Below are positions 1 to 54,548 of a stretch of DNA of 64,000 nt, piece after piece. Made by a program: the position numbers and the translations under genes. The first letter of the stretch is position 1. Each line of letters begins with the position of its first letter. This DNA comes from Flavobacteriaceae bacterium (GTDB lineage Bacteria > Bacteroidota > Bacteroidia > Flavobacteriales > Flavobacteriaceae). The notes beneath the pieces are model-generated. The model searched no databases. It was given only the letters and a program-made list of their open reading frames with translations, and was not told the origin of the DNA. Where the stretch lies: assembly GCA_003443635.1 (NCBI GenBank), contig CP031964.1, positions 1,024,321-1,088,320 on the forward strand, written 5' to 3'.

Positions 1-922
1 TGAAGATGTACGTCGCTCTTATTCACTATGCTCAAGTCCATTAGATAAACAATGGAAAGTAGCAGTAAAACAAATTCAAGGAGGTGTATTTTCAACATAT
101 GTAAATACAGAGTTAAAACGTGGAGATATTTTGCAAATAATGCAACCTGAAGGTAATTTCTTTGTAGATATAAATGCTAAAGCTTCAAAAAATTATATAG
201 CATTTGCAGCTGGTAGTGGTATTACACCAATGTTGTCTATTATAAAAACACACTTACTGGCAGAACCAGAAAGTACATTCAAATTATTTTATTTAAACCG
301 TACTGTAAAATCAATTATCTTTAAAGAAGAAATAGAAATGCTTAAAAATCAGTTTTTTGGGCGTTTTCAAGTGTTTTATTTTCTAACTAAAGAGCAGCGC
401 GATATACCATTTTTAAATGGTCGTTTTGATAAAGAAAAGCTAGAAGTGTTAACCAAAACATTTATAGATATCGAAGATACCGATCACTGTTTTATTTGTG
501 GTCCACAAGAAATGATTTTCTTAATTCGTGATCATTTAGAAGAAACGGGTTTAGATAAAGATAAAATACATTATGAATTGTTCTTCTCAGGGAGTGATGC
601 TTCTGATGCTCAAATTGCAGAAGTGTTAGAGCAAAAAGTAGAAGGTACAGAAGTGACAATTATTGATGGCGGAAAAGAGTTTCACTTTACTATGGATGAT
701 GACTTTGATAATGTTTTAGATGGAGCTCTGGCTGCAGGTGCAGATTTACCTTATGCTTGTAAAGGTGGTGTATGTAGTACATGCAAATGTAAAATTGTAG
801 AAGGCTCAGTAGAAATGAAAGTGAATTATGCTCTTGAAGAAAATGAAGTAAAACAGAATTTGGTATTAAGTTGTCAGGCTGTACCAACATCAGATAAAAT
901 TATTGTTGATTTCGATGTCTAA
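1..922 (+). CDS. paaE: Phenylacetyl-CoA epoxidase reductase subunit PaaE (5' end cut off)
   Basis: Electron-transfer subunit that passes electrons from NADPH through FAD and a 2Fe-2S cluster to the PaaA di-iron centre. The open frame runs in from base 2, so the start lies upstream of the window. The first residues hold the flavin-binding motif RRSYSLCSSP. Next comes a ferredoxin reductase NAD-binding part (AAGSGITPMLSI, then CFICGPQEMI). The C-terminus is a plant-type ferredoxin domain with the cysteine pattern of CKGGVCSTCKC and a later LSCQA. Only about the first 40-50 residues of a normal PaaE are missing. It is followed 33 bases later by paaA. Gene order E-A-B-C-D places the reductase first, unlike the E. 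coli order A-B-C-D-E. Confidence 0.95.
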   Translation, partial: EDVRRSYSLCSSPLDKQWKVAVKQIQGGVFSTYVNTELKRGDILQIMQPEGNFFVDINAKASKNYIAFAAGSGITPMLSIIKTHLLAEPESTFKLFYLNRTVKSIIFKEEIEMLKNQFFGRFQVFYFLTKEQRDIPFLNGRFDKEKLEVLTKTFIDIEDTDHCFICGPQEMIFLIRDHLEETGLDKDKIHYELFFSGSDASDAQIAEVLEQKVEGTEVTIIDGGKEFHFTMDDDFDNVLDGALAAGADLPYACKGGVCSTCKCKIVEGSVEMKVNYALEENEVKQNLVLSCQAVPTSDKIIVDFDV

Positions 923-955: not shown

Positions 956-1912
956 ATGAGTGAAGAACAAATAAAAAACTTAGAACAACAATTTGAAGGG
1001 CGTATTGAACGTGATGAAAAAATTGAACCTAAGGATTGGATGCCAGAAAAATATCGTAAAACACATATTAGGCAAATCTCTCAACACGCTCATTCCGAAA
1101 TTATTGGAATGCTGCCTGAAGGAAATTGGATAACTCGTGCACCTTCTTTACGTCGTAAAGTAGCGTTGCTAGCTAAAGTACAAGATGAAGCAGGTCATGG
1201 ATTATATTTATATAGTGCGTGTGAAACTTTAGGAATCTCTCGCGATGAGTTATACGAGCAGTTACATACTGGTAAAGCAAAATATTCAAGTATTTTTAAT
1301 TATCCAACTGTGACATGGGCAGACATGGGAGCAATAGGTTGGTTAGTAGATGGTGCTGCCATTATTAATCAAGTACCATTATGCAGCACTTCTTATGGGC
1401 CTTATGCAAGGGCTATGATTCGTGTGTGTAAAGAAGAAAGTTTTCATCAGCGTCAAGGCTATGAAATTATGATAAAACTGGCTAACGGAACACCAGAACA
1501 AAAAGAGATGGCTCAAGATGCATTAAACCGTTGGTGGTGGCCTTCATTAATGATGCTTGGCCCTACAGATGCAGAATCTGTACACACAGAGCAATCAATG
1601 AAATGGAAATTAAAGCGTAAAACAAATGATGAGTTACGTCAGCAATTTATAGATCAAACAGTACCTCAAGCTGATTTGATTGGACTTACAATTCCAGATC
1701 CAGATTTAAAATGGAATGAAGAACGTCAGAGCTACGATTTTGGAGAGATTGACTGGGATGAATTCTGGCAAGTTGTAAAAGGTCATGGACCTTGTAATAA
1801 AGAACGTATGGACGCCAGAGTTAATGCTTGGAATAATGGCGAATGGGTAAGGGATGCTGCAATAGCTTATGCAGAAAAACAAGTAGATAAAAAACAAAAA
1901 CAAGCAGTTTAA
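956..1912 (+). CDS. paaA: Phenylacetyl-CoA 1,2-epoxidase catalytic subunit PaaA
   Basis: Catalytic subunit of the ring-1,2-phenylacetyl-CoA epoxidase, a cytoplasmic bacterial multicomponent monooxygenase. It epoxidises the aromatic ring of phenylacetyl-CoA with O2 and electrons from PaaE. Candidate carboxylate and histidine iron ligands are visible: E48 in HAHSEIIG, E78 and H81 in DEAGHG, D132 in WLVDGAA, and E161 and H164 in KEESFHQRQ. The length of 318 residues is close to that of E. coli PaaA. The ATG follows paaE by 33 bases and paaB starts 13 bases after the stop. I see no truncation or missing motif. Confidence 0.97.
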
Positions 1913-2270: not shown

Positions 2271-3023
2271 ATGAAAAGAAACTTATACAGATACATATTA
2301 GGAATCGCTGATAACAGTTTAATTCTTGGTCAGCGAATGGGGGAGCTAACAGGTCATGGTCCTAATCTCGAAACAGACATTGCTTGTACAAATATATCAC
2401 TCGATTTATTTGGACAGGTGAGGAGTTACTATCAATATGCAGCAAAAATTGCAGGAGATGAAAGAACGGAAGATGATATTGCTATGTTGCGTAAAGAACG
2501 CGAGTACTTTAATGTACTTTTAGTAGAACAACCTAATAAAGATTTTGCTTATACGATTGCGCGTCAATTTTTATTTGATGTTTATCATTTATTGTTTTTG
2601 CAAGAATTACAAAAAAGCCACGATGTGACACTATCAGCAATTGCTGATAAATCAATAAAAGAAGTAAGTTATCACCAGCGATTTTCATCAGATTGGATTA
2701 AACGTTTAGGAGATGGTACAGAAGTAAGTCATAATAAAATTCAAGAAGCAATTAATAACTTATGGACGTATACAGATGAATTATTTCATCTAACTGAAGC
2801 AGATAAAATAATGGTAAAAGAAGGTGTGGGAGTAGATGTGACTTTATTGAAAAATCAATATTATGATAGAGTAAACACAATTCTCGAAGTAGCTACTTTA
2901 GAAATACCAGAATCAAAATGGTTTCAAAAAGGAGGTAAAGAAGGGATTCATACAGAACATTTAGGATATTTATTAAGTGATTTGCAATATATGCAACGTA
3001 CGTATCCTAATATGGAGTGGTAA
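2271..3023 (+). CDS. paaC: Phenylacetyl-CoA epoxidase subunit PaaC
   Basis: Structural partner of PaaA in the epoxidase. It has a ferritin-like fold but is known in the family not to carry the catalytic di-iron site. The 250 residues match the family length. Typical stretches are YILGIADNSLILGQRMGEL near the N-terminus, the DIACTNISLDLFGQVRSYY helix and HTEHLGYLLSDLQYMQRTYP at the end. The gap to paaB is 60 bases. The gap to paaD is 49 bases and holds one hairpin of the intergenic repeat family. Confidence 0.96.
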   Translation: MKRNLYRYILGIADNSLILGQRMGELTGHGPNLETDIACTNISLDLFGQVRSYYQYAAKIAGDERTEDDIAMLRKEREYFNVLLVEQPNKDFAYTIARQFLFDVYHLLFLQELQKSHDVTLSAIADKSIKEVSYHQRFSSDWIKRLGDGTEVSHNKIQEAINNLWTYTDELFHLTEADKIMVKEGVGVDVTLLKNQYYDRVNTILEVATLEIPESKWFQKGGKEGIHTEHLGYLLSDLQYMQRTYPNMEW

Positions 3024-3072: not shown

Positions 3073-3573
3073 ATGACAGTAACTGAACAACATATAGATC
3101 AATCATTGGTAGAGATACTGGAAAAAGTTTCAGATCCCGAAATACCAGTACTATCAATTATGGATATGGGAGTTGTACGTTCTGCAATTATTAAAGATGA
3201 TGTCGTAAAAGTTCAAATAACACCGACTTATAGTGGATGCCCTGCAATGGATGTTATTGGAGATGACATTAAAAGTGCATTAAAAGAAGCAGGATTTAAT
3301 GCAGAAATAGAATTGATTTTATCTCCTGCGTGGACTACAGATTGGATTACTCCAAGAGGTAGAAAAGCACTAGAAGATTATGGTATAGCAGCACCTTTAG
3401 ATGCAGAAGCAGATAAAGAAGTACTGTTAAATGGAAAACGAATAGTGAAGTGCACCAATTGCAGTTCAACAAATACGAGATTAGTAAGTCAGTTTGGTTC
3501 GACAGCTTGTAAAGCACAGTTTCAATGTGATGACTGTCAAGAACCATTTGATTATTTTAAATGTTTGAAATGA
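3073..3573 (+). CDS. paaD: Phenylacetate degradation protein PaaD (DUF59, iron-sulfur assembly type)
   Basis: Needed for epoxidase activity and thought from its family to act in maturation of the iron or Fe-S centre. The N-terminal DUF59/MIP18-type domain has SDPEIPVLSIMDMGVVR and the conserved TYSGCPAMDVI motif. The C-terminal zinc-ribbon-like part has paired cysteines in CTNCSS and CDDC, with a final FKC. The 166-residue length fits the family. It is the last subunit gene of the E-A-B-C-D block. A 94-base gap with two hairpins separates it from paaG. Confidence 0.94.
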   Translation: MTVTEQHIDQSLVEILEKVSDPEIPVLSIMDMGVVRSAIIKDDVVKVQITPTYSGCPAMDVIGDDIKSALKEAGFNAEIELILSPAWTTDWITPRGRKALEDYGIAAPLDAEADKEVLLNGKRIVKCTNCSSTNTRLVSQFGSTACKAQFQCDDCQEPFDYFKCLK

Positions 3574-3667: not shown

Positions 3668-4453
3668 ATGAGTAACAATTCAATTGAATTAAAAATTGAA
3701 AATAATATAGCGTACATTTCACTTAATAGACCAGAAGTATTCAATAGCTTCAATAGAGAAATGGCACTTCTTCTTCAAGAAACGTTGGACGCTTGTGAGG
3801 TGAATTCAGAAGTAAGAGTTATTGTATTAACTGGAAATGGAAAAGCATTTTGTGCTGGTCAAGACTTAAAAGAAGTTACTTCACCAGAATTAAACCCTGG
3901 GTTTAAGAAAATATTAGAAGAACATTATAATCCAATTATTACACGTATCCGCAATGTCGAAAAACCCATCATAGGAGCTGTTAATGGTGTTGCAGCAGGA
4001 GCAGGAGCAAATATTGCTTTAGCCTGTGATATTGTAGTGGCTAACGAGAACGCTAGCTTTATTCAAGCATTTAGTTTAATAGGTTTAATTCCTGATAGTG
4101 CAGGTACTTTTTTTTTACCACGATTAATAGGGTTTCAAAAAGCATCAGCTCTAGCAATGTTAGGCGATAAAGTAAGTGCAGAAGAAGCCGAACGAATCGG
4201 GATGATTTATAAATATGTGCCTTCTGAAGATTTTCAAGAAACAATAAATAAGCTTGCAAATAAAATGGCAAAAATGCCAACAAAAGCACTAGTTTTAATT
4301 AAAAAAGCATTTAATCAATCCTTATCGAATACTTTAGAAGAGCAATTAAATTTAGAATCTAAATATCAGATAGAAGCAGCAGGAAGCGAAGATTATTCAG
4401 AGGGTGTTAATGCTTTTATAGAAAAACGTAAACCTAATTTCAAAGGTCAATAA
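3668..4453 (+). CDS. paaG: 1,2-epoxyphenylacetyl-CoA isomerase PaaG (crotonase family)
   Basis: Converts the ring epoxide of phenylacetyl-CoA to oxepin-CoA, and is known to act again later as a delta3-delta2 enoyl-CoA isomerase. It is a crotonase fold of 261 residues with the CoA-binding AFCAGQDLKE loop and the oxyanion region NGVAAGAGANIALACDI. Both hydratase glutamates are absent. The PaaG catalytic aspartate is present at D143 in GLIPDSAGT, matching D136 of E. coli. This pattern separates it from plain enoyl-CoA hydratases. The next gene begins one base after its stop. Confidence 0.92.
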   Translation: MSNNSIELKIENNIAYISLNRPEVFNSFNREMALLLQETLDACEVNSEVRVIVLTGNGKAFCAGQDLKEVTSPELNPGFKKILEEHYNPIITRIRNVEKPIIGAVNGVAAGAGANIALACDIVVANENASFIQAFSLIGLIPDSAGTFFLPRLIGFQKASALAMLGDKVSAEEAERIGMIYKYVPSEDFQETINKLANKMAKMPTKALVLIKKAFNQSLSNTLEEQLNLESKYQIEAAGSEDYSEGVNAFIEKRKPNFKGQ

Positions 4454-4454
4454 A

Positions 4455-5390
4455 ATGAATAAAGATATTCTCTTACAAGTTCACGAACGAATACAACCTT
4501 ATATCCATCGTACACCAGTGTTATCTTCAGAGCAGATTAATGAAATTACTGGAGCAAAAGTGTATTTTAAGTGTGAAAATTTCCAGAAAATGGGAGCTTT
4601 TAAAATGCGAGGAGCGGCTAATGCAATTTTAAACTTATCACAAGAACAAAGAGATAAAGGTGTAGTAACACATTCGTCAGGAAACTTTGCACAAGCAGTA
4701 TCTTTAGCAGCAAAAAAATTAGGAGTAAAAGCATATATTGTAATGCCTGAAAATGCGCCACAAGTTAAAAAAGATGCAGTAAAAGGATATGATGGAGAAA
4801 TTAGAGAGTGCCCATCTAACATTCAAGATAGAGAAGATTTAGCAACTTATATTCGTGATGAAGATGGAGCTACATTTTTGCATCCTTCTAATGATGATGA
4901 TGTAATTCATGGTCAGGGAACTGCTGCAATGGAACTTCTAGAAGATTATCCAGATTTAAATTATATTTTCACTCCAGTTGGTGGCGGCGGATTAGTTGCA
5001 GGTACAGCTTTAGCTGCCAAATATTTTTCAAATGACTGTAAAGTGATTGCAGGAGAGCCTATGAATGCTGATGATGCCTATCGCTCATTACAAAGTGGTG
5101 AAATTGAAACTAACGAAACTTTTGATACAATAGCTGATGGATTGAGAACTAATCTTGGAGATAGAAATTTTCCTATCATAAAAAGAGAAGTCGAAAAGAT
5201 TATTAGAGTAGAAGAAGACGAAATTAAAGCAGCTATGCAATTAATCTGGGAACGAATGAAGATTGTTGTAGAGCCTTCGAGTGCAGTGCCATTTGCAGCA
5301 TTACTAAAAAACAAAGAAGATTATAAAGGTAAAGATGTCGGGATTATAATTTCTGGCGGAAATGTAGATTTAAAAAACTTACCATTTTAA
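4455..5390 (+). CDS. Serine racemase / threo-3-hydroxyaspartate dehydratase-like PLP enzyme
   Basis: Fold-type II PLP enzyme of 311 residues. The Schiff-base lysine is K50 in MGAFKMRGAANA. The substrate loop is SSGNFAQA (most relatives have SSGNHAQA), and the phosphate-binding loop is GGGGLVAG. The C-terminal half, with PMNADDAYRS, TIADGLRTNLG and IWERMKIVVEPSSA, resembles serine racemases and beta-threo-hydroxyaspartate dehydratases more than biosynthetic threonine deaminases, and there is no ACT regulatory domain. It sits one base after paaG and 52 bases before paaH, inside the paa operon, although no known step of this pathway needs such an enzyme. Exact substrate is unknown. Confidence 0.8.
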   Translation: MNKDILLQVHERIQPYIHRTPVLSSEQINEITGAKVYFKCENFQKMGAFKMRGAANAILNLSQEQRDKGVVTHSSGNFAQAVSLAAKKLGVKAYIVMPENAPQVKKDAVKGYDGEIRECPSNIQDREDLATYIRDEDGATFLHPSNDDDVIHGQGTAAMELLEDYPDLNYIFTPVGGGGLVAGTALAAKYFSNDCKVIAGEPMNADDAYRSLQSGEIETNETFDTIADGLRTNLGDRNFPIIKREVEKIIRVEEDEIKAAMQLIWERMKIVVEPSSAVPFAALLKNKEDYKGKDVGIIISGGNVDLKNLPF

Positions 5391-5442: not shown

Positions 5443-6597
5443 ATGAACGTAGGAATTATAGGTTCAGGAACAATGGGAAGTGGTATTGCACAAGTAGCAG
5501 CAACTTCTGGTTGTAAAGTAAAACTATATGATACTAATCAAGATGCTCTTGATAAAAGTAAAGCAGCATTAGAAAAAGTATTAACACGATTAGTTGAAAA
5601 AAGGAGAATAGATACAGATGAAAAATTAAGGATTCAAGATAATATATCGTATGTAGATAGATTAAAAGACTTAGCTGATTCTAACTTAACAATCGAGGCA
5701 ATTATAGAAAATTTAGATATTAAGAAAAAAGTATTTTCAGAGCTTGAAACATATGTAGCAGACGATTGCATCATCGCATCAAATACATCAAGCTTATCTA
5801 TTGCTTCAATAGCTTCATCATTACAAAAACCTGAACGTTGTATTGGAATTCATTTTTTTAATCCAGCACCCTTAATGAAACTGGTTGAGGTTATTCCTGC
5901 AATTCAAACCTCTAATAACGTATTAGAACAATCGGTTCAAACTATTTCAGATTGGAAAAAAACGGTTGCAGTAGCTAAAGATACTCCAGGGTTTATTGTA
6001 AATCGTGTAGCTCGTCCATTTTATGGAGAATCTTTGCGAATTTATGAAGAAGGGATAGCCGATTTTGCAACGATAGACTGGAGTTTAAAAACATTAGGAG
6101 GATTTCGTATGGGGCCATTTGAGTTGATGGATTTTATAGGAAATGATGTTAATTATACGGTAACAGAAACTGTATTTACAGCCTTTTATTTTGACCCAAG
6201 ATATAAACCAGCATTTACACAAAAACGTTTTTCTGAAGCAGGTTATTTAGGACGCAAATCTGGAAGAGGATATTATGATTATTCTGAAGGAGCATCAAAA
6301 CCAGAACCAAAAGAAGATAAATTATTAGCTGAACAAATATTTGATCGTGTTTTAGTAATGTTAATTAATGAAGCAGCAGATGCCTTATTTTTAAATATTG
6401 CATCGGCAGATGATATAGATAATGGAATGACCAAAGGAGTTAACTATCCAAAGGGATTGTTAGCTTGGGCAGATGAAAAAGGAATAGATTGGTGCGTTTT
6501 TAAATTAGATGGGTTATATACAGAATATCACGAAGATAGATACCGTTGTAGTCCACTATTAAGAAAAATGGCTAGAGAAAATAAAACATTTTTTTAA
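5443..6597 (+). CDS. paaH: 3-hydroxyadipyl-CoA dehydrogenase PaaH (3-hydroxyacyl-CoA dehydrogenase)
   Basis: NAD-dependent oxidation of 3-hydroxyadipyl-CoA to 3-oxoadipyl-CoA in the beta-oxidation phase of phenylacetate breakdown. The Rossmann motif is GSGTMGSGIAQVA at the N-terminus. The 3HCDH signature is visible in IASNTSSLSIASIA, IGIHFFNPAPLMKLVEV and DTPGFIVNRVARPF. A second, shorter 3HCDH-type C-terminal domain covers roughly residues 300-384. At 384 residues it is longer than single-domain enzymes (about 280) and shorter than E. coli PaaH (475). The stop overlaps the paaI start in TAATG. Confidence 0.9.
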   Translation: MNVGIIGSGTMGSGIAQVAATSGCKVKLYDTNQDALDKSKAALEKVLTRLVEKRRIDTDEKLRIQDNISYVDRLKDLADSNLTIEAIIENLDIKKKVFSELETYVADDCIIASNTSSLSIASIASSLQKPERCIGIHFFNPAPLMKLVEVIPAIQTSNNVLEQSVQTISDWKKTVAVAKDTPGFIVNRVARPFYGESLRIYEEGIADFATIDWSLKTLGGFRMGPFELMDFIGNDVNYTVTETVFTAFYFDPRYKPAFTQKRFSEAGYLGRKSGRGYYDYSEGASKPEPKEDKLLAEQIFDRVLVMLINEAADALFLNIASADDIDNGMTKGVNYPKGLLAWADEKGIDWCVFKLDGLYTEYHEDRYRCSPLLRKMARENKTFF

Positions 6598-7004
6598 TGA
6601 AAGGAGAAGCAATTCCATATAAAATGTTAAGTCAAGATGCTTATAGTACTTGGCTAGGTATTGAAATTTTAGGGTGTGAAATAGGAAGATGCAGAGTAGG
6701 AATGACAATTAGAAGGAAAATGCTCAATAGCATGGGAAAAGCACATGGAGGAATAAGTTATGCATTAGCAGATACAGCATTTGGATTTGCAGCAAATACA
6801 CATGGTAAATATGCTGTATCCATTGAAACAAGCATTAATCATATAGAAGCATTAAATGAAGGAGATTACTTAATTGCTGAATCAGTAATTGAAAAAGTAA
6901 ATAATAAATTAGGATTTAATATAGTAGAAGTAAAGCGAGGTGACGAATTAGTAGCATTATTTAAAGGTGTTGTATATAGAACACAAAAAGATTGGGAAGA
7001 ATAA
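6597..7004 (+). CDS. paaI: Phenylacetate degradation thioesterase PaaI (hotdog fold)
   Basis: Hydrolyses CoA thioesters of dead-end or over-accumulating phenylacetate intermediates, freeing CoA. It is a 135-residue hotdog protein with the PaaI-family core NSMGKAHGGISYALADTAFG, in which the HGG and the following Asp are the catalytic-region residues. The start codon shares one base with the paaH stop. The next gene starts 11 bases downstream if its ATG at 7016 is used. Confidence 0.92.
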   Translation: MKGEAIPYKMLSQDAYSTWLGIEILGCEIGRCRVGMTIRRKMLNSMGKAHGGISYALADTAFGFAANTHGKYAVSIETSINHIEALNEGDYLIAESVIEKVNNKLGFNIVEVKRGDELVALFKGVVYRTQKDWEE

Positions 7005-7015
7005 ATAAGCTTAAG

Positions 7016-7555
7016 ATGAAGATTAAAACAGATAGATTATTTGCAATATTAGCTTTCGTAGTTAGTGTGAGTACATTATATGTTTTTTTTTATCAAACAT
7101 CTCTAATGAAAAAACAGCAATATACGAGTGTATTACCTTTTTTATCTTTAGGGAATACACAAGTTAATGAAAACTATAGTTTTGTTTTAACCAATAATGG
7201 TATCGGACCTGCTTTTATTGAAAAAATAAATATTCATTATCAAGATACCATATTTTATAATTCAGATATAAATGAATTTTTTAATAAAGTAATTAAACAA
7301 GAAGATACAATATTCAATTCTATGGGGATAACGCATTCTACTTTAAGAAAAGGAATGCTTATTCCTGAAAAGGAAACAAGATATATGCTTACATTAAATC
7401 ATGAAGTAGATGATTTTAAAAATAAGCAAATTAGATTAAGAGAATGGTTAAATAATCAAATTAAAGTCGAAATCGAATATTCTTCAATATATAAAGAGAA
7501 ATGGCGTATTATATATCCAAATCCAGATAATGATGCACCAATAAAAATTAAATAA
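7016..7555 (+). CDS. Hypothetical membrane-anchored protein within the paa operon
   Basis: Function not recognised. Residues about 6-26 form one hydrophobic segment (LFAILAFVVSVSTLYVFFY), followed by a polar body of about 150 residues, so this is probably a single-pass protein. The body has FVLTNNGIGPAFIEKI, which resembles the beta-sandwich proteins seen behind one TM helix in many Bacteroidota. I chose ATG 7016 over an in-frame TTG at 6992 because the latter overlaps paaI and the residues between are charged. It is co-directional, lies between paaI and paaJ with very small gaps, and is AT-richer than its neighbours. It may be a late insertion into the operon. Confidence 0.65.
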   Translation: MKIKTDRLFAILAFVVSVSTLYVFFYQTSLMKKQQYTSVLPFLSLGNTQVNENYSFVLTNNGIGPAFIEKINIHYQDTIFYNSDINEFFNKVIKQEDTIFNSMGITHSTLRKGMLIPEKETRYMLTLNHEVDDFKNKQIRLREWLNNQIKVEIEYSSIYKEKWRIIYPNPDNDAPIKIK

Positions 7556-7564
7556 TAAAGAGTT

Positions 7565-8773
7565 TTGAAAGAAGCATATATAATAGATGGTGTTCGTACA
7601 CCAATAGGGAATTACAAAGGTACTTTATCTGCTGTTCGTACAGACGATTTAGGGGCCATTGTTATAGAAGAAATTGTAAAACGAAATCCAAATATTCCAA
7701 AAGAAGCATATGATGATGTTATTTTAGGATGTGCTAATCAAGCAGGAGAAGATAATCGTAATGTAGCACGAATGTGTTCTCTTTTAGGAGGCTTGCCTTT
7801 CACAGTTCCAGGAGAAACTGTTAACCGCTTATGTAGCTCAGGTTTATCGGCAATCATTCATGCCAATCGAGCGATTAAATCAGGTGATGGAGATGTGTTT
7901 ATTGCTGGAGGTGTAGAGAACATGACACGAGGGCCTTATGTAATTGCAAAACCTTCAACAGGGTTTGGAGGAGATTCAAAAATGTACGATTCTACTTTTG
8001 GATGGCGTTTTATCAATCCTAAAATGCAAAAGCTATATGGAACGGATGGAATGGGAAATACTGCTGAAAATTTAGTAGAAAAATATAACATTTCTAGAGA
8101 AGATCAAGATGCATTTGCTTATTGGAGTCAGATGAAAGCAGCTAAATCTCAGGAAAATGGGCGTTTAGCAAAAGAAATTGTAACAGTGGAGATTTCACAA
8201 CGTAAAAAAGATCCAATTCAATTTTCAAAAGACGAGTTTGTAAAGCCAGCAACCTCATTAGAAGTTTTAGGAAAATTAAGAGCAGCATTTAAAAAAGAAG
8301 GCGGGAGTGTTACCGCAGGAAATTCTTCAGGATTGAATGATGGTGCTGCTGCGACGATAATTGCTTCAGAAGACGCTGTTAAAAAATATAATTTAAATCC
8401 AATTGCAAAAATTGTGAGCTCGGCAGTAGTAGGTGTAGAGCCAAGAATAATGGGAATAGGACCGGTACAAGCTTCTAATAAAGCATTGGAAAAAGCAGGA
8501 TTGACTATGGATGATATTGATGTGATTGAACTTAATGAAGCATTTGCAGCTCAAGCTTTAGCATGTACACGTACTTGGGGGCTAGCAGATAACGACCCAA
8601 GATTAAACCCTAATGGAGGATCTATTGCTATTGGTCATCCACTTGGTGTAACAGGAGCTAGAATAGCTTACTCGGCGGCATTGGAATTACAAGAGCAAAA
8701 TAAAAAATATGCTTTGATAACAATGTGTGTAGGAGTAGGACAAGGTTATGCGGCAGTAATAGAACGCGTATAA
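7565..8773 (+). CDS. paaJ: 3-oxoadipyl-CoA / 3-oxo-5,6-dehydrosuberyl-CoA thiolase PaaJ
   Basis: Thiolase that cleaves 3-oxo-5,6-dehydrosuberyl-CoA and 3-oxoadipyl-CoA, releasing acetyl-CoA and finally succinyl-CoA. The 402 residues match E. coli PaaJ (401). The nucleophilic cysteine is C90 in VNRLCSSGLSA. The acid/base parts are ELNEAFAAQ, GGSIAIGHPLGVTGAR and TMCVGVGQG. The start is TTG at 7565, because the N-terminal alignment (KEAYIIDGVRTPIG) leaves no room for an upstream ATG. One base separates it from the following SDR gene. Confidence 0.93.
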   Translation: MKEAYIIDGVRTPIGNYKGTLSAVRTDDLGAIVIEEIVKRNPNIPKEAYDDVILGCANQAGEDNRNVARMCSLLGGLPFTVPGETVNRLCSSGLSAIIHANRAIKSGDGDVFIAGGVENMTRGPYVIAKPSTGFGGDSKMYDSTFGWRFINPKMQKLYGTDGMGNTAENLVEKYNISREDQDAFAYWSQMKAAKSQENGRLAKEIVTVEISQRKKDPIQFSKDEFVKPATSLEVLGKLRAAFKKEGGSVTAGNSSGLNDGAAATIIASEDAVKKYNLNPIAKIVSSAVVGVEPRIMGIGPVQASNKALEKAGLTMDDIDVIELNEAFAAQALACTRTWGLADNDPRLNPNGGSIAIGHPLGVTGARIAYSAALELQEQNKKYALITMCVGVGQGYAAVIERV

Positions 8774-9394: not shown

Positions 9395-11896
9395 ATGAAA
9401 AAAATACAACATTACGTTACAGGTGAATGGACAGAAGGAAAAGATGAAGGTACACCTGTTTTAGATGCAATTACTGGCGATGTGATTGCAAATACAGCTA
9501 TTGAGGGGTTAGATATTCCAGAAATTTTAAATTACGGAAGAACTAAAGGAGGAGAAGTACTTCGTAAAATGACTTTTCAAGAACGAGGTAATATGCTTAA
9601 AAGCCTTGCTTTATACCTTAATAAACGCAAAGAAGCATTTTATGAGATTAGTTATCGTACAGGAGCTACTCGTATAGATAGTTGGATAGATATAGAAGGA
9701 GGCTTTGGTAACTTATTTGCTAATGCATCTTTAAGAAAGTTATTTCCTAATCAGCCATATCATGTAGAAGGAGACCCTATCGATTTATCACGTGGAGGAC
9801 GCTTTATGGCACATCATATTATGGTACCTAAAAAAGGAGTGGCAGTACATATTAATGCGTTTAATTTCCCGGTTTGGGGAATGCTAGAAAAATGTGCAGT
9901 AAATTGGATGGCAGGAATGCCAGCTGTAGTCTTACCAGCACCATCTTCATCATATTTAGCAGAAGCTGTAGCCAGAGAAATTATAGCTTCAGGAATTTTA
10001 CCAGAAGGCGCATTACAAATTATTAACGGAACTGTTCGCAACATATTAGATACTGTTGAATCTCAAGATGTAGTTACGTTTACAGGCTCAGCTTCTACTG
10101 GACGTATTTTAAAAGCACATCCAAGAATTATTCAAGAAGCAGTACCATTTACTATGGAAGCAGATTCCTTAAATGCTTCTATCTTAGGAGAAGATGCTGT
10201 TCCAGGAACTCCAGAATTCGATATATTTATTAAAGAAGTTCGTAAAGAAATGACCGTTAAGGCTGGTCAAAAATGTACAGCTATTCGTCGTATTATTGTT
10301 CCTGAAACTTTGGTAGAAGATGTACAAATTGCTTTAGGAAAAGCATTAGATAAAGTAACTATTGGTGATCCAAGACTTAAAGAAGTTAGAATGGGATCTT
10401 TAGTTAGTAAACAACAAGTTGAAGCCGTAAAAAATAGTGTTCAAGATCTGGCTAAAGAAGCACAAATTGTTTATGGTAATTTAGATAAAATTGATGCTAT
10501 TGGAGCAGATGCTAAAAAAGGCGCATTTATAAGCCCTATTTTATTACGTGCAGATAATCCGTTAAATAATAGAGCAGTTCACGAACGTGAGGCATTTGGT
10601 CCAGTAAGTACTATTATGCCTTATAAAACAATTGATGAAGCAATTACTTTATCTCAAATGGGTAAAGGGTCTTTAGTATCTTCAATTACTACAAATAATG
10701 ATACAATCGCAAAAGATTATGTAGTTAATGCTGCAAGTCATCACGGACGTATTTTAGTGCTAAATCGAGAGAGTGCAAAAGAAAGTACAGGGCACGGTTC
10801 ACCATTACCGTATTTAACTCACGGAGGCCCAGGTCGTGCAGGAGGAGGAGAAGAAATGGGCGGAATGCGAGGTATAAAACATTATTTACAACGTACAGCT
10901 ATTCAGGGATCACCGACAACCTTAACAGAAATCACAGGTATTTATCAAGCGAATAGTGCATATAAAGAAATAGATAAGCATCCGTTTGCATACCACTGGG
11001 AAGATATCCAGCCAGGGATGTCATTAAAAACGCATAAACGAACCATTACAGATGGAGATATTGTGAATTTTGCTAATTTAACATGGGATCATTTTTATGC
11101 ACACACAGATATTACATCTTTAGATGGAAGTATTTTTGAAAAACGAACAGCACACGGATATTTTATTCTAGCAGCAGCAGCAGGATTATTTGTATATCCT
11201 AATAAAGGACCTGTAGCGGCAAATTATGGATTAGAGGAATGTCGTTTTTTACGCCCTATTTATCATAACGATACGGTTTACGTGAGATTAACATGTAAAC
11301 AAAAAATAGATAGAGATGTTGCTAGTGCAGAACACCCTAGCGGAATTGTAAAGTGGTTTGTTGAAGTGTTTGATGTTGAAGATGAATTAGTTGCTGTGGC
11401 AACTATTTTAACTATGGTAGAGAAAAAGCAAACAGTATTTGTTGAAATGACGGATGCAAAAATTCAAGAATGCTTAAGTAAATTAACTGAAGATGTAAAA
11501 CCAAAATGGGGAGTATTAACACCTCAGCATATGATTGAGCATTTAGAATTTACTTATAGAATTGCGTCAGGCGAAAATCAAGATTTTGAAATTGCAACTC
11601 CAGAAAAGATTTTAGAGAAAGTTAAAAACAGTTTGTATAACTATAACCCTTTCCCTCTGGAAAGTGAATTTCCATTACTTAAAAAAGGAGAGTTAGATAA
11701 TTTGAAACACTCAAATTTAGCTACTGCAATTGAAAAACTTAATGAAGCTAGAGAAGCATATAAAGCATATTTTAAAGAACACCCAGAAGCTATTTTAAAA
11801 AATATTGTTTTTGGAGAATTAAATAAATATGAATGGTATCTGTTAGAAAGGAAACATTTAAATCATCATTTTGAACAGTTTAACCTGTTGGATTAG
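9395..11896 (+). CDS. paaZ: Bifunctional oxepin-CoA hydrolase / semialdehyde dehydrogenase PaaZ with C-terminal DUF1569 domain
   Basis: Opens the oxepin-CoA ring and oxidises the resulting aldehyde with NADP. Residues 1 to about 520 are the aldehyde dehydrogenase, with E255 in FTMEADSLN and C294 in KAGQKCTAIRR, almost the same numbers as E. coli E256 and C295. Residues about 530-677 are the MaoC-like hydrolase, with D565 and H570 in DHFYAH. E. coli PaaZ ends near 681, but this protein continues to 833. The extra residues about 681-833 resemble DUF1569 of the DinB superfamily, with WGVLTPQHMIEHLE and at the end KHLNHHFEQFN. The same domain occurs alone at 54093-54548. The role of the extension is unknown. 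Confidence 0.93.
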   Translation: MKKIQHYVTGEWTEGKDEGTPVLDAITGDVIANTAIEGLDIPEILNYGRTKGGEVLRKMTFQERGNMLKSLALYLNKRKEAFYEISYRTGATRIDSWIDIEGGFGNLFANASLRKLFPNQPYHVEGDPIDLSRGGRFMAHHIMVPKKGVAVHINAFNFPVWGMLEKCAVNWMAGMPAVVLPAPSSSYLAEAVAREIIASGILPEGALQIINGTVRNILDTVESQDVVTFTGSASTGRILKAHPRIIQEAVPFTMEADSLNASILGEDAVPGTPEFDIFIKEVRKEMTVKAGQKCTAIRRIIVPETLVEDVQIALGKALDKVTIGDPRLKEVRMGSLVSKQQVEAVKNSVQDLAKEAQIVYGNLDKIDAIGADAKKGAFISPILLRADNPLNNRAVHEREAFGPVSTIMPYKTIDEAITLSQMGKGSLVSSITTNNDTIAKDYVVNAASHHGRILVLNRESAKESTGHGSPLPYLTHGGPGRAGGGEEMGGMRGIKHYLQRTAIQGSPTTLTEITGIYQANSAYKEIDKHPFAYHWEDIQPGMSLKTHKRTITDGDIVNFANLTWDHFYAHTDITSLDGSIFEKRTAHGYFILAAAAGLFVYPNKGPVAANYGLEECRFLRPIYHNDTVYVRLTCKQKIDRDVASAEHPSGIVKWFVEVFDVEDELVAVATILTMVEKKQTVFVEMTDAKIQECLSKLTEDVKPKWGVLTPQHMIEHLEFTYRIASGENQDFEIATPEKILEKVKNSLYNYNPFPLESEFPLLKKGELDNLKHSNLATAIEKLNEAREAYKAYFKEHPEAILKNIVFGELNKYEWYLLERKHLNHHFEQFNLLD

Positions 11897-11907: not shown

Positions 11908-12381
11908 ATGTTAAAGAATACCTCTGATAAAATATTAGATAGTACAGATAAAGTTCTTAATCAATTAAAAGAAGGGCTTTCTAAAATTGGTGATTTAGGG
12001 AAAGCTACCAAAGATAAGTTTACCAATTATGTAAAGGAAGTATTTGATATTTTACCCATATTAGAAGAGGCAGGCTTTGTAACTAATAGCTTAATAGTTG
12101 GAATTTCGATACCTCCATCAATAGAAATACATTTTAGTAAGTTCAAGGAGGTAGATGAAGATACTATTAAAAAGTTAAATAAAGAGTATAAGGATAAAAA
12201 GATGTTTAAATTGATTCTCAAATCACTTTTAATGTCTAATAATTTTCAATCTAAAATAGCTTCAGATAATTATGTTCCTAATGGAATATGCATTGAAATT
12301 TCAATACCACCAAAAGTGAGTATTAGATATTTAAATAAGAATCTTAAAAACGTAAATTTTATACATACAGAATTTGATTAA
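11908..12381 (+). CDS. Hypothetical protein with two ISIPP repeats, inside the paa operon
   Basis: Not recognised. The 157 residues have no signal peptide or clear TM segment. The first 45 residues are a charged amphipathic helix-like stretch. Two copies of a short pattern lie exactly 65 residues apart: ISIPPSIEIHF at 66-76 and ISIPPKVSIRY at 131-141, each preceded by a glycine-containing hydrophobic strand. This suggests two related beta-rich units. It starts 11 bases after paaZ and ends 3 bases before the next crotonase gene, so it is translated within the operon. The coding sequence is more AT-rich than paaZ. Confidence 0.6.
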   Translation: MLKNTSDKILDSTDKVLNQLKEGLSKIGDLGKATKDKFTNYVKEVFDILPILEEAGFVTNSLIVGISIPPSIEIHFSKFKEVDEDTIKKLNKEYKDKKMFKLILKSLLMSNNFQSKIASDNYVPNGICIEISIPPKVSIRYLNKNLKNVNFIHTEFD

Positions 12382-12384
12382 AAT

Positions 12385-13137
12385 ATGAGTGATCCATACG
12401 TAAAACAAACTATAGAAAATGAAGTAGGAACTATCGAGTTTTTTCACCCTGCTCATAACTCTTTACCAGGGAATATATTATCGAAATTAGCAGAAACAAT
12501 TACTGAAGCTGGGAAAAATGATGCAATTAAAGTCATTGTTTTAAAGAGTGGAGGTGAGCGTACCTTTTGCGCAGGAGCAAGCTTTAAAGAACTAATTAGT
12601 ATTGATGATGCAGAGACAGGGCGTGTGTTCTTTTCTGGATTTGCCAATGTAATTAATGCCATGCGTAAATGTCCAAAATTTATTATTGGACGAATCCAAG
12701 GAAAAACAGTTGGAGGAGGAGTTGGTTTAGCATCTGCAACAGATTATTGTATGGCAACCAAATTTGCTGCGATAAAATTAAGTGAATTAAATATTGGTAT
12801 TGGCCCTTTTGTAGTTGGTCCGGCAGTAGAACGCAAATTAGGGTTAAGCGGAATGTCTCAAATTGCGATTGATGCAAACAGCTTTTATCCAGCAGAGTGG
12901 GCAAAACAAAAAGGATTGTTCACACAAGTATTTGATACTACTGAAGAATTAGATGAAGCAGTTAAAGCGTTTTCTGAAAATTTGTGTACATACAATACAG
13001 AAGCGATGAAAGAAATGAAAACCATTTTTTGGAATGGAACAGAACATTGGGATTCATTATTAATGGAGCGTGCAGAAATAAGTGGACGCTTAGTATTAAG
13101 TGACTTTACAAAAGAAAAATTAAAAGGATTTAAATAA
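12385..13137 (+). CDS. Enoyl-CoA hydratase/isomerase family protein (PaaF candidate)
   Basis: Crotonase-fold protein of 250 residues with FCAGASFKEL and the oxyanion glycine region KTVGGGVGLASATDY. By position it is the best candidate for the 2,3-dehydroadipyl-CoA hydratase step (PaaF), which is otherwise missing from the cluster. The active site is unusual for a PaaF. The position of hydratase Glu144 is G114 in GGGVGLA, while the Glu164 equivalent is kept as E134 in KLSELNIGIGP. This one-glutamate pattern, with GIGPFVVGPAVERK, is closer to LiuC-type methylglutaconyl-CoA hydratases. It could therefore serve leucine breakdown or be an alternative PaaF. Confidence 0.8.
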   Translation: MSDPYVKQTIENEVGTIEFFHPAHNSLPGNILSKLAETITEAGKNDAIKVIVLKSGGERTFCAGASFKELISIDDAETGRVFFSGFANVINAMRKCPKFIIGRIQGKTVGGGVGLASATDYCMATKFAAIKLSELNIGIGPFVVGPAVERKLGLSGMSQIAIDANSFYPAEWAKQKGLFTQVFDTTEELDEAVKAFSENLCTYNTEAMKEMKTIFWNGTEHWDSLLMERAEISGRLVLSDFTKEKLKGFK

Positions 13138-53484: not shown

Positions 53485-54093
53485 TTAAAAAGTAACTATA
53501 TTAAATACATTATCTAAAAAAGTTTTAACACTTTCTTGGTTAGTACGAATCAGCTCTTTTCTAGCATTTTCTTTATCACTTGGCTTTTTATCCTGAGAAA
53601 GTTTAAATTTTCCTTCCCAGTCAGTAATTGTAATTTCGAACATTTTAATATAATCAAGATTACGTTCCATTCTGGGATTGTCTGCTTCTAAAACATATTT
53701 ATGATCTGGGGCTTCAAGGAACTCAGTCATTTTAATTAACGAATCTTTTAAAGCAACTTTGCTCTCAATAGCTGTTACTTTACCTTTTAAATGTACTTTA
53801 ATATAATTCCATGTAGGTAATTGATTAGTATTATAAACACTAGGAGAAATATAACAATCGGGTCCAGAAAATAATATAGTTATATCATTATTGTTTTTAA
53901 GTAATCCAGCTTGAGGGTTAAAAATATCTATATGCCCAATAAGCTTATGTTCCTCTTCATATACTAATGGTAAATGTGTAATTAAAGGAGTATTATTATC
54001 AATCGAGATAATAGTTGCTAAAGGATAAGTTTTAATAACTTCAATCATATGATTGAGATCGTTATCTTGATGATGTTTAGGTGGGTAATTCAT
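53485..54093 (-). CDS. FMN-binding negative transcriptional regulator (PaiB family)
   Basis: Protein of 202 residues of the PaiB family, a split-barrel flavin-binding fold. Typical parts are MNYPPKHHQDNDLNHMIEVI, LITHLPLVYEE, the HIDIFNPQAGLL region and LPTWNYIKVHLKGKV. The first Bacillus member was linked to repression of protease and sporulation genes. Direct DNA binding is unproven for most relatives. The start codon overlaps the stop of the upstream DUF1569 gene (TAATG), so the two are one unit. Confidence 0.88.
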   Translation of the reverse strand: MNYPPKHHQDNDLNHMIEVIKTYPLATIISIDNNTPLITHLPLVYEEEHKLIGHIDIFNPQAGLLKNNNDITILFSGPDCYISPSVYNTNQLPTWNYIKVHLKGKVTAIESKVALKDSLIKMTEFLEAPDHKYVLEADNPRMERNLDYIKMFEITITDWEGKFKLSQDKKPSDKENARKELIRTNQESVKTFLDNVFNIVTF

Positions 54094-54548
54094 TAGACTC
54101 CAAATTGTTTTAAGTGGTGATCTAAATGCTTATATTGCATTTTGCCTCGCTGCTCAGTAGTGAAATCTCCAAAAATAGGATGGGTTGGCCAATTTGCACT
54201 ATCTTTCTTATCAGCAAATTCATTTATCAGGTTTACTAAATTATCTTTCTCATTAGCAAAAACTTGAGGGTCTGTAACAATAAACTCTTTAGGGGTCTGT
54301 AAATTTTGTTTCCAAGGTTTATCATTATACATATGAGGCTTAACAATACTCTTAAATATTAATCGCTTTAAAAACCCAACCTTAGTTGTCATTTGTGTTT
54401 TACTTGTAGCGATTTCAAGTGGTAATTGGCAATGCTTAAGCATTTGACCTACATTCATTTTTCCCCAATTAGCTTGCGAGCTTTCATTTAAACTGTTTAT
54501 TCTATTTAAAATTTCTTGATGTGTTTCAGCATTAAATAAAGATTCCAT
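54093..54548 (-). CDS. DUF1569 (DinB-like) domain protein
   Basis: Stand-alone protein of 151 residues. The core helices carry NWGKMNVGQMLKHCQ and the C-terminal FGDFTTEQRGKMQYKHLDHH. The spaced histidines (H39, H141, H144, H145) are in the positions where DinB-superfamily proteins bind metal. The same domain occurs fused to PaaZ at 9395-11896, where KHLNHHFEQFN matches KHLDHHLKQFG. Some DinB relatives are thiol- or metal-dependent transferases. The role here is unknown. Co-transcribed with the PaiB-like gene. Confidence 0.82.
   Translation of the reverse strand: MESLFNAETHQEILNRINSLNESSQANWGKMNVGQMLKHCQLPLEIATSKTQMTTKVGFLKRLIFKSIVKPHMYNDKPWKQNLQTPKEFIVTDPQVFANEKDNLVNLINEFADKKDSANWPTHPIFGDFTTEQRGKMQYKHLDHHLKQFGV

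Follow-up and report, generated by a model that had tools for sequence, protein, structure and literature searches.

Sequence comparison of a 64,000-nucleotide stretch of Flavobacteriaceae DNA, hereafter the window, with related genomes indicated that a PaaZ with a third, C-terminal domain is a real and conserved trait in many Bacteroidota. The additional domain was assigned to the DUF1569-type branch of the DinB/STL superfamily, an assignment settled by profile comparison, a confident structural model and an invariant histidine set. As far as the open-access literature shows, the third PaaZ domain is undescribed, and it makes the protein a variant of an enzyme already known rather than a new type of system.

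The window paaZ lies in a paa cluster, on the same strand as genes of the paaE, A, C, D, G, H, I and J types recognized by NCBIfam, and a gene of the enoyl-CoA hydratase (ECH) family comes next in the cluster after it:

131-922, plus strand: paaE (NCBIfam)
956-1912, plus strand: paaA (NCBIfam)
2271-3023, plus strand: paaC (NCBIfam)
3073-3573, plus strand: paaD (NCBIfam)
3668-4453, plus strand: paaG-like gene (NCBIfam)
5443-6597, plus strand: paaH-like gene (NCBIfam)
6597-7004, plus strand: paaI-like gene (NCBIfam)
7565-8773, plus strand: paaJ/pcaF (NCBIfam)
12385-13137, plus strand: enoyl-CoA hydratase family gene (ECH_1, E 2e-30; gene order)

Between the paaG-like and paaH-like genes there is also a gene resembling PLP-dependent threonine/hydroxyaspartate dehydratases (4455-5390, plus strand), which scored below the equivalog cut-offs. 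Two further ORFs on the plus strand lie inside the cluster, one after paaI with no function assigned (6992-7555) and one after paaZ with no Pfam match (11908-12381).

The window PaaZ is encoded by a single ORF of 833 codons without an internal stop, and its product can be divided as follows:

9395-11896, plus strand: three-domain PaaZ, 833 aa (single ORF; TIGR02278 873.6 bits, residues 4-677)
9395-10939, plus strand: aldehyde dehydrogenase (ALDH) domain, residues ~1-515, with E255 and C294 (Pfam Aldedh, E 5e-53; 6jql alignment)
10982-11422, plus strand: MaoC-type oxepin-CoA hydratase domain, residues ~530-676, with D565 and H570 (Pfam MaoC, E 4e-21; 6jql alignment)
11444-11890, plus strand: C-terminal DUF1569/DinB-like (STL superfamily) domain, residues ~684-832 (Pfam, sub-threshold; hhalign; AlphaFold2; Foldseek)

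The score against the NCBIfam PaaZ model TIGR02278 was well above the equivalog cut-off (873.6 versus 562.8 bits), covering profile positions 1-664 with both domains in order, and residues 4-683 aligned with E. coli PaaZ (6jql), which has the same ALDH and MaoC domains. As a preliminary description of this DNA had proposed, all four catalytic residues aligned as well: E255, C294, D565 and H570 of the window protein correspond to E256, C295, D561 and H566 of E. coli PaaZ, and they were invariant in 111 fused PaaZ. Channelling in the E. coli enzyme has been attributed to a charged surface between its two domains, for which seven basic residues were proposed (PMC6739347). Five of these seven positions are still basic in the window PaaZ (K69, K115, R617, K635 and R640; three identical and two basic), whereas R632 and R639 are replaced by Q636 and A643. 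The main difference lies at the C-terminus, since the E. coli chain stops near residue 681 while the window protein continues for about 150 residues; in agreement with the preliminary description, residues 684-832 have no counterpart in the E. coli enzyme and form an additional domain.

The proposed DUF1569/DinB-like identity of this extension did not emerge from the Pfam search at the required score, but was upheld by profile comparison. The isolated domain scored 18.1 bits against Pfam DUF1569 (E 0.003), below the gathering cut-off of 21, and more weakly against DinB_2 (15.9 bits), so that strict Pfam annotation would overlook it. When profile was compared with profile using hhalign, the domain matched DUF1569 over 147 columns with an E value of 3.5e-25 and a probability of 99.7. 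By BLASTP it aligned over nearly its full length (E 7e-10, 21% identical) with the only protein in this genome that matches the Pfam DUF1569 model:

54093-54548, minus strand: stand-alone DUF1569 protein, 151 aa (Pfam DUF1569, 43.2 bits)

These two E values place the homology far above chance. The motif order said to be common to the two sequences proved correct, the stand-alone gene being on the minus strand, and the WG..M...H, FG and KH..HH..QF motifs are those of DUF1569 (PF07606), with which the homology is near full length; the window domain differs from that family in its sub-threshold score, in its low identity to the stand-alone protein and in being fused to PaaZ. In an alignment of 58 rows (A4), made up of fused domains, stand-alone relatives and DUF1569 proteins, 50 of the 58 individually matched DUF1569 (E <= 0.01) and 18 matched DinB_2. 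We know of no function for DUF1569, nor of an activity for many other proteins of the DinB superfamily, and no characterised DUF1569 member was found in the open-access literature.

AlphaFold2 predicted the domain to be a helix bundle (mean pLDDT 93) with main helices at domain positions 35-49, 62-73, 100-120 and 136-153, and the bundle was also present in the full-length (monomer) model. The leading Foldseek matches in the PDB were DinB/STL proteins, all weak (E > 0.05): TTHA0303 (2yqy, the best), a YfiT-like protein, BstD/YjoA (3dka), the mycothiol S-transferase of M. tuberculosis with Zn and mycothiol (8f5v) and a mycothiol-dependent maleylpyruvate isomerase (2nsg), together with 2rd9, described as a putative metal-dependent hydrolase. 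TTHA0303, a four-helix bundle protein of Thermus, was in addition the only profile match to the domain among solved chains (E 0.026) and has FGEL...H..HH in common with it; unlike the window domain it is a stand-alone protein, itself without an assigned function.

Across A4, G706, H716, K820, H821, H824, H825, Q828 and F829 (window numbering) were invariant; among the 111 fused PaaZ, H716 was kept in 110 and G706, K820, H821, H824, H825, Q828 and F829 in all. The presumed metal ligands are encoded at:

11540-11542, plus strand: codon of H716, presumed metal ligand, helix 2 (H in 110/111 fused PaaZ and 58/58 A4 rows)
11852-11881, plus strand: K820-H821-x-x-H824-H825-x-x-Q828-F829, last helix, with H821 and H825 as presumed metal ligands (HxxxH; 111/111 fused PaaZ, 58/58 A4 rows)

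The eight metal-dependent bacillithiol transferases of B. subtilis have just three residues in common, which in BstA are H67, H160 and H164, and every one of the eight lost its activity with EDTA (PMC5815605). H716 and H821xxxH825 are spaced like this set and agree with the DinB/STL pattern of one histidine plus HxxxH, so the third domain contains an invariant, putative metal site of the DinB three-histidine type. The bacillithiol and mycothiol S-transferases of the superfamily (BstA-H, MST) likewise combine a helix bundle with one histidine in helix 2 and an HxxxH in the final helix, but a sequence search of solved chains gave no significant pairwise similarity to them, and the window domain has K820, H824, Q828 and F829 as extra invariant residues. 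Where dS was measurable, dN/dS of the third domain was ~0.02-0.12; the comparison indicates purifying selection, though less tight than on the remainder of PaaZ, which changes more slowly.

Among related genomes the fused form was recurrent: it was present in 75 of the 398 genomes of the window's order. We refer to the window's own family as f1 and take it to be Flavobacteriaceae because named Flavobacterium, Aquimarina, Zunongwangia and Ulvibacter loci group with it in trees; f2 belongs to the same order, while f4 and f5 are other families, f5 lying outside that order. All 13 PaaZ of f1 and 62 of the 69 of f2 were fused, the seven exceptions in f2 coming from one genus (g198), and the PaaZ listed for the order's remaining families had two domains and 679-739 aa. 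No fused PaaZ was found in f4, a family of the class (0/93). A restriction of the fusion to Flavobacteriales was nevertheless wrong, as 16 of the 65 PaaZ-bearing genomes of f5 have it. Most PaaZ of the phylum do without the third domain, which is thus dispensable for the basic reaction. A frameshift, missed stop or assembly error joining two genes, or a third domain that is a decaying remnant, would fit the sub-threshold Pfam score of the window copy, but this is so improbable as to be dismissed, given that the same single ORF occurs in the 75 genomes of the order, the 16 of another family and 80 named records, and that the domain shows strong purifying selection and an invariant motif.

The C-termini of the fused PaaZ formed one clade (support 100/96), in which the only other row was the ECH fusion described below. 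When all fused PaaZ were held together in the tree of the core, the topology was not rejected (p-AU 0.976) and had a likelihood above that of the free-search tree; the trees are therefore most simply explained by a single fusion event. Two independent PaaZ fusions, as in the first core trees (AU p 0.11), were unsupported after f5 was added. The fused PaaZ of f1 and f5 grouped together with a support of 100 even though the two families belong to different orders, which suggests a transfer of paaZ between them.

Several individual loci were also noted. The genus g198 (L195, L196) has two-domain PaaZ only, and its sequences branch with those of other families, pointing to replacement by a foreign paaZ rather than to domain loss. 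One fused PaaZ of f5 (L387:708-3245, plus strand) is nested in the Flavobacteriaceae clade with 84.6% identity to the window PaaZ core, as expected from a recent transfer or a contaminated bin, and a metagenome-assembled genome recorded as 'Rhizobium sp. Q54' (L149), which carries a Flavobacteriaceae-type fused PaaZ (80% identity), is probably mislabelled or mis-binned. In a genome with a fused PaaZ (G012), a stand-alone DUF1569-like gene with stop codons (L165:4253-4727, plus strand) is likely a pseudogene. Apparent PaaZ-DUF1569-ECH triple fusions of 1095-1099 aa were rejected, since these ORFs stop at 842 aa, with the hydratase encoded by the following gene.

Elsewhere in the Bacteroidota, this pairing seems to be realized by two genes that lie near each other. 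In 21 f4 genomes with a two-domain paaZ, a stand-alone DUF1569-like gene was found upstream of it in the same orientation; the spacing ranged from a short overlap of the open frames to 2.4 kb of separation. The usual order was DUF1569-paaZ-ECH, the last being the same enoyl-CoA hydratase gene that follows the window paaZ. Among loci not picked for this feature, the arrangement occurred in 6 of 29 with 1.5-kb flanks and in 8 of 20 with ~4-kb flanks, compared with a chance expectation of <1%. The adjoining genes formed one inherited clade (99/97; 100/99 with an f5 member), so the f4 counts are not independent events; this clade is distinct from that of the fused domain, so there were at least two separate occasions on which DUF1569-like proteins became associated with paaZ. 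In the fused loci examined, paaZ was not accompanied by an additional stand-alone DUF1569-like gene, and no paa genes were seen, on reading by eye, in the neighbourhoods of the closest stand-alone proteins (families f55/f59/f63).

Related domains were also found on two other enzymes:

L335:637-1848, also L372:4137-5360, minus strand: DUF1569-ECH fusion (ECH relative of window 12385-13137)
L162:4021-5751, also L163, L164 and L230-L234, minus strand (L162): HMG-CoA reductase with a C-terminal DUF1569/DinB-like domain (genus g3)

The ECH fusion comes from one genome of f5 (G158), which has no PaaZ and in which a DUF1569 domain precedes a paa-type enoyl-CoA hydratase in a single protein of 408 aa. 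This domain nests within the PaaZ C-termini, and some relatives have the start of the hydratase gene only a few bases past the fused paaZ, so that in this one genome the fusion looks like a remnant from which the PaaZ part was lost and in which the histidines were kept. Its neighbours, read by eye, resemble a carboxymuconolactone decarboxylase, a MarR-type regulator and a 4-hydroxyphenylpyruvate dioxygenase. The second fusion was found in genus g3 of the window's family, where frames of 575-602 aa with a related domain occur in 39 of 60 genomes; Pfam assigned one of these frames to HMG-CoA reductase and two others read the same way, the rest being assigned from frame length. HMG-CoA reductases of other sampled genera of the family are frames of 426-492 aa without the extra domain. 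The fused reductases formed a clade (100/99), and the sequences indicate an event separate from the PaaZ fusion. PaaZ and HMG-CoA reductase both have aldehyde-level intermediates, and all the fusion partners, the enoyl-CoA hydratase included, act on CoA thioesters.

The intermediate that PaaZ produces in aerobic aromatic degradation is highly reactive, and electrophiles are the targets of those STL proteins that have been characterised, which bind a metal together with a low-molecular-weight thiol. We infer, with slightly less than even confidence, that the third domain is an STL-type, metal-dependent and thiol-using accessory domain that acts on electrophiles made by PaaZ. It would bind a divalent metal, with H716, H821 and H825 as candidate ligands, and a low-molecular-weight thiol, for which bacillithiol or N-methyl-bacillithiol is the likeliest choice, and would use both on an electrophile of the PaaZ reaction sequence, the leading candidates being the ring-opened CoA semialdehyde, or its unsaturated products, leaving the ALDH site. 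Tethering would hold the detoxifying chemistry where the aldehyde is made. The bacillithiol synthesis protein BshC is encoded in this genome (462.7 bits), and within the Bacteroidota, Polaribacter MED152 is a strain in which N-methyl-bacillithiol was measured (PMC6282198). The earlier suggestion that the domain traps, channels or detoxifies the aldehyde was thus retained in part: service to the reactive PaaZ intermediate is suggested by the DUF1569-paaZ association, the kept histidines, the HMG-CoA reductase fusion and the bacillithiol gene, while enzyme-type metal/thiol chemistry appears more likely than simple trapping or channelling by a histidine-rich bundle: the invariant residues coincide exactly with the DinB/STL metal site and are not scattered histidines. 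For channelling in PaaZ, the charged surface between its two domains already offers an explanation. PaaY is the known repair thioesterase of the PaaZ step; since a PaaY-like gene, recognized by sequence similarity, is also present beside fused PaaZ, the third domain does not replace it.

A purely structural role, in which the domain gives the PaaZ hexamer greater stability or size or serves as an anchor for partner Paa proteins, its histidines holding a structural metal, is unlikely but has a real chance of being correct. Such a role would suit a domain that sits at the free C-terminus past the MaoC domain, diverges more quickly than the catalytic ones and is dispensed with by most PaaZ, but conservation is concentrated in a catalytic-type metal site, and neither a free-standing relative beside paaZ nor the same domain on another enzyme without PaaZ would need a PaaZ scaffold. 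We consider it distinctly unlikely that the domain is a thiol-dependent isomerase, in which the thiol would add to a conjugated double bond of the ring-opened product and produce a cis-to-trans flip or a shift for the next enzymes. The mycothiol-dependent maleylpyruvate isomerase, which also acts on an aromatic ring-cleavage product, is among the structure matches, and the domain adjoins or is fused with a gene of the enoyl-CoA hydratase/isomerase family; however, the 2nsg match is weak (E 5.6), the cluster already has a PaaG-type isomerase gene, and HMG-CoA reductase has no such double bond yet bears a related domain. A metal-dependent hydrolase or CoA-binding module that proof-reads or binds CoA thioesters and tunes CoA release in PaaZ and HMG-CoA reductase is an equally doubtful proposition: the use of CoA thioesters by every fusion partner and the match to 2rd9 agree with it, whereas the cluster already contains a PaaI-type thioesterase gene and the matched superfamily members have no established hydrolase activity, those known to be characterised transferring thiols.

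The thiol-using accessory domain could also be part of a wider pattern, in which the DUF1569-type domain would be a bacillithiol-dependent partner module for aldehyde-generating CoA enzymes and would capture or process the semialdehyde in PaaZ and mevaldehyde in HMG-CoA reductase. We regard this generalization as speculative and on balance improbable; if true, a bacillithiol-dependent step would be built into aerobic phenylacetate degradation and DUF1569 would receive its first function. No description of a three-domain PaaZ or of the fusion between HMG-CoA reductase and a DinB-type domain was found in the open-access literature, and the separate DUF1569-like clade beside paaZ, the ECH fusion and the HMG-CoA reductase fusion are new here. 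The co-location and the HMG-CoA reductase fusion raise the value of the finding because they make the function of DUF1569 testable: taken together, the PaaZ fusion, the gene-neighbour association and the HMG-CoA reductase fusion point to a class of substrates, to three histidines as candidate metal ligands and to a likely thiol as co-substrate. For the organisms themselves, our results indicate that the PaaZ used by Flavobacteriaceae and some related families differs from the only one whose structure has been solved.
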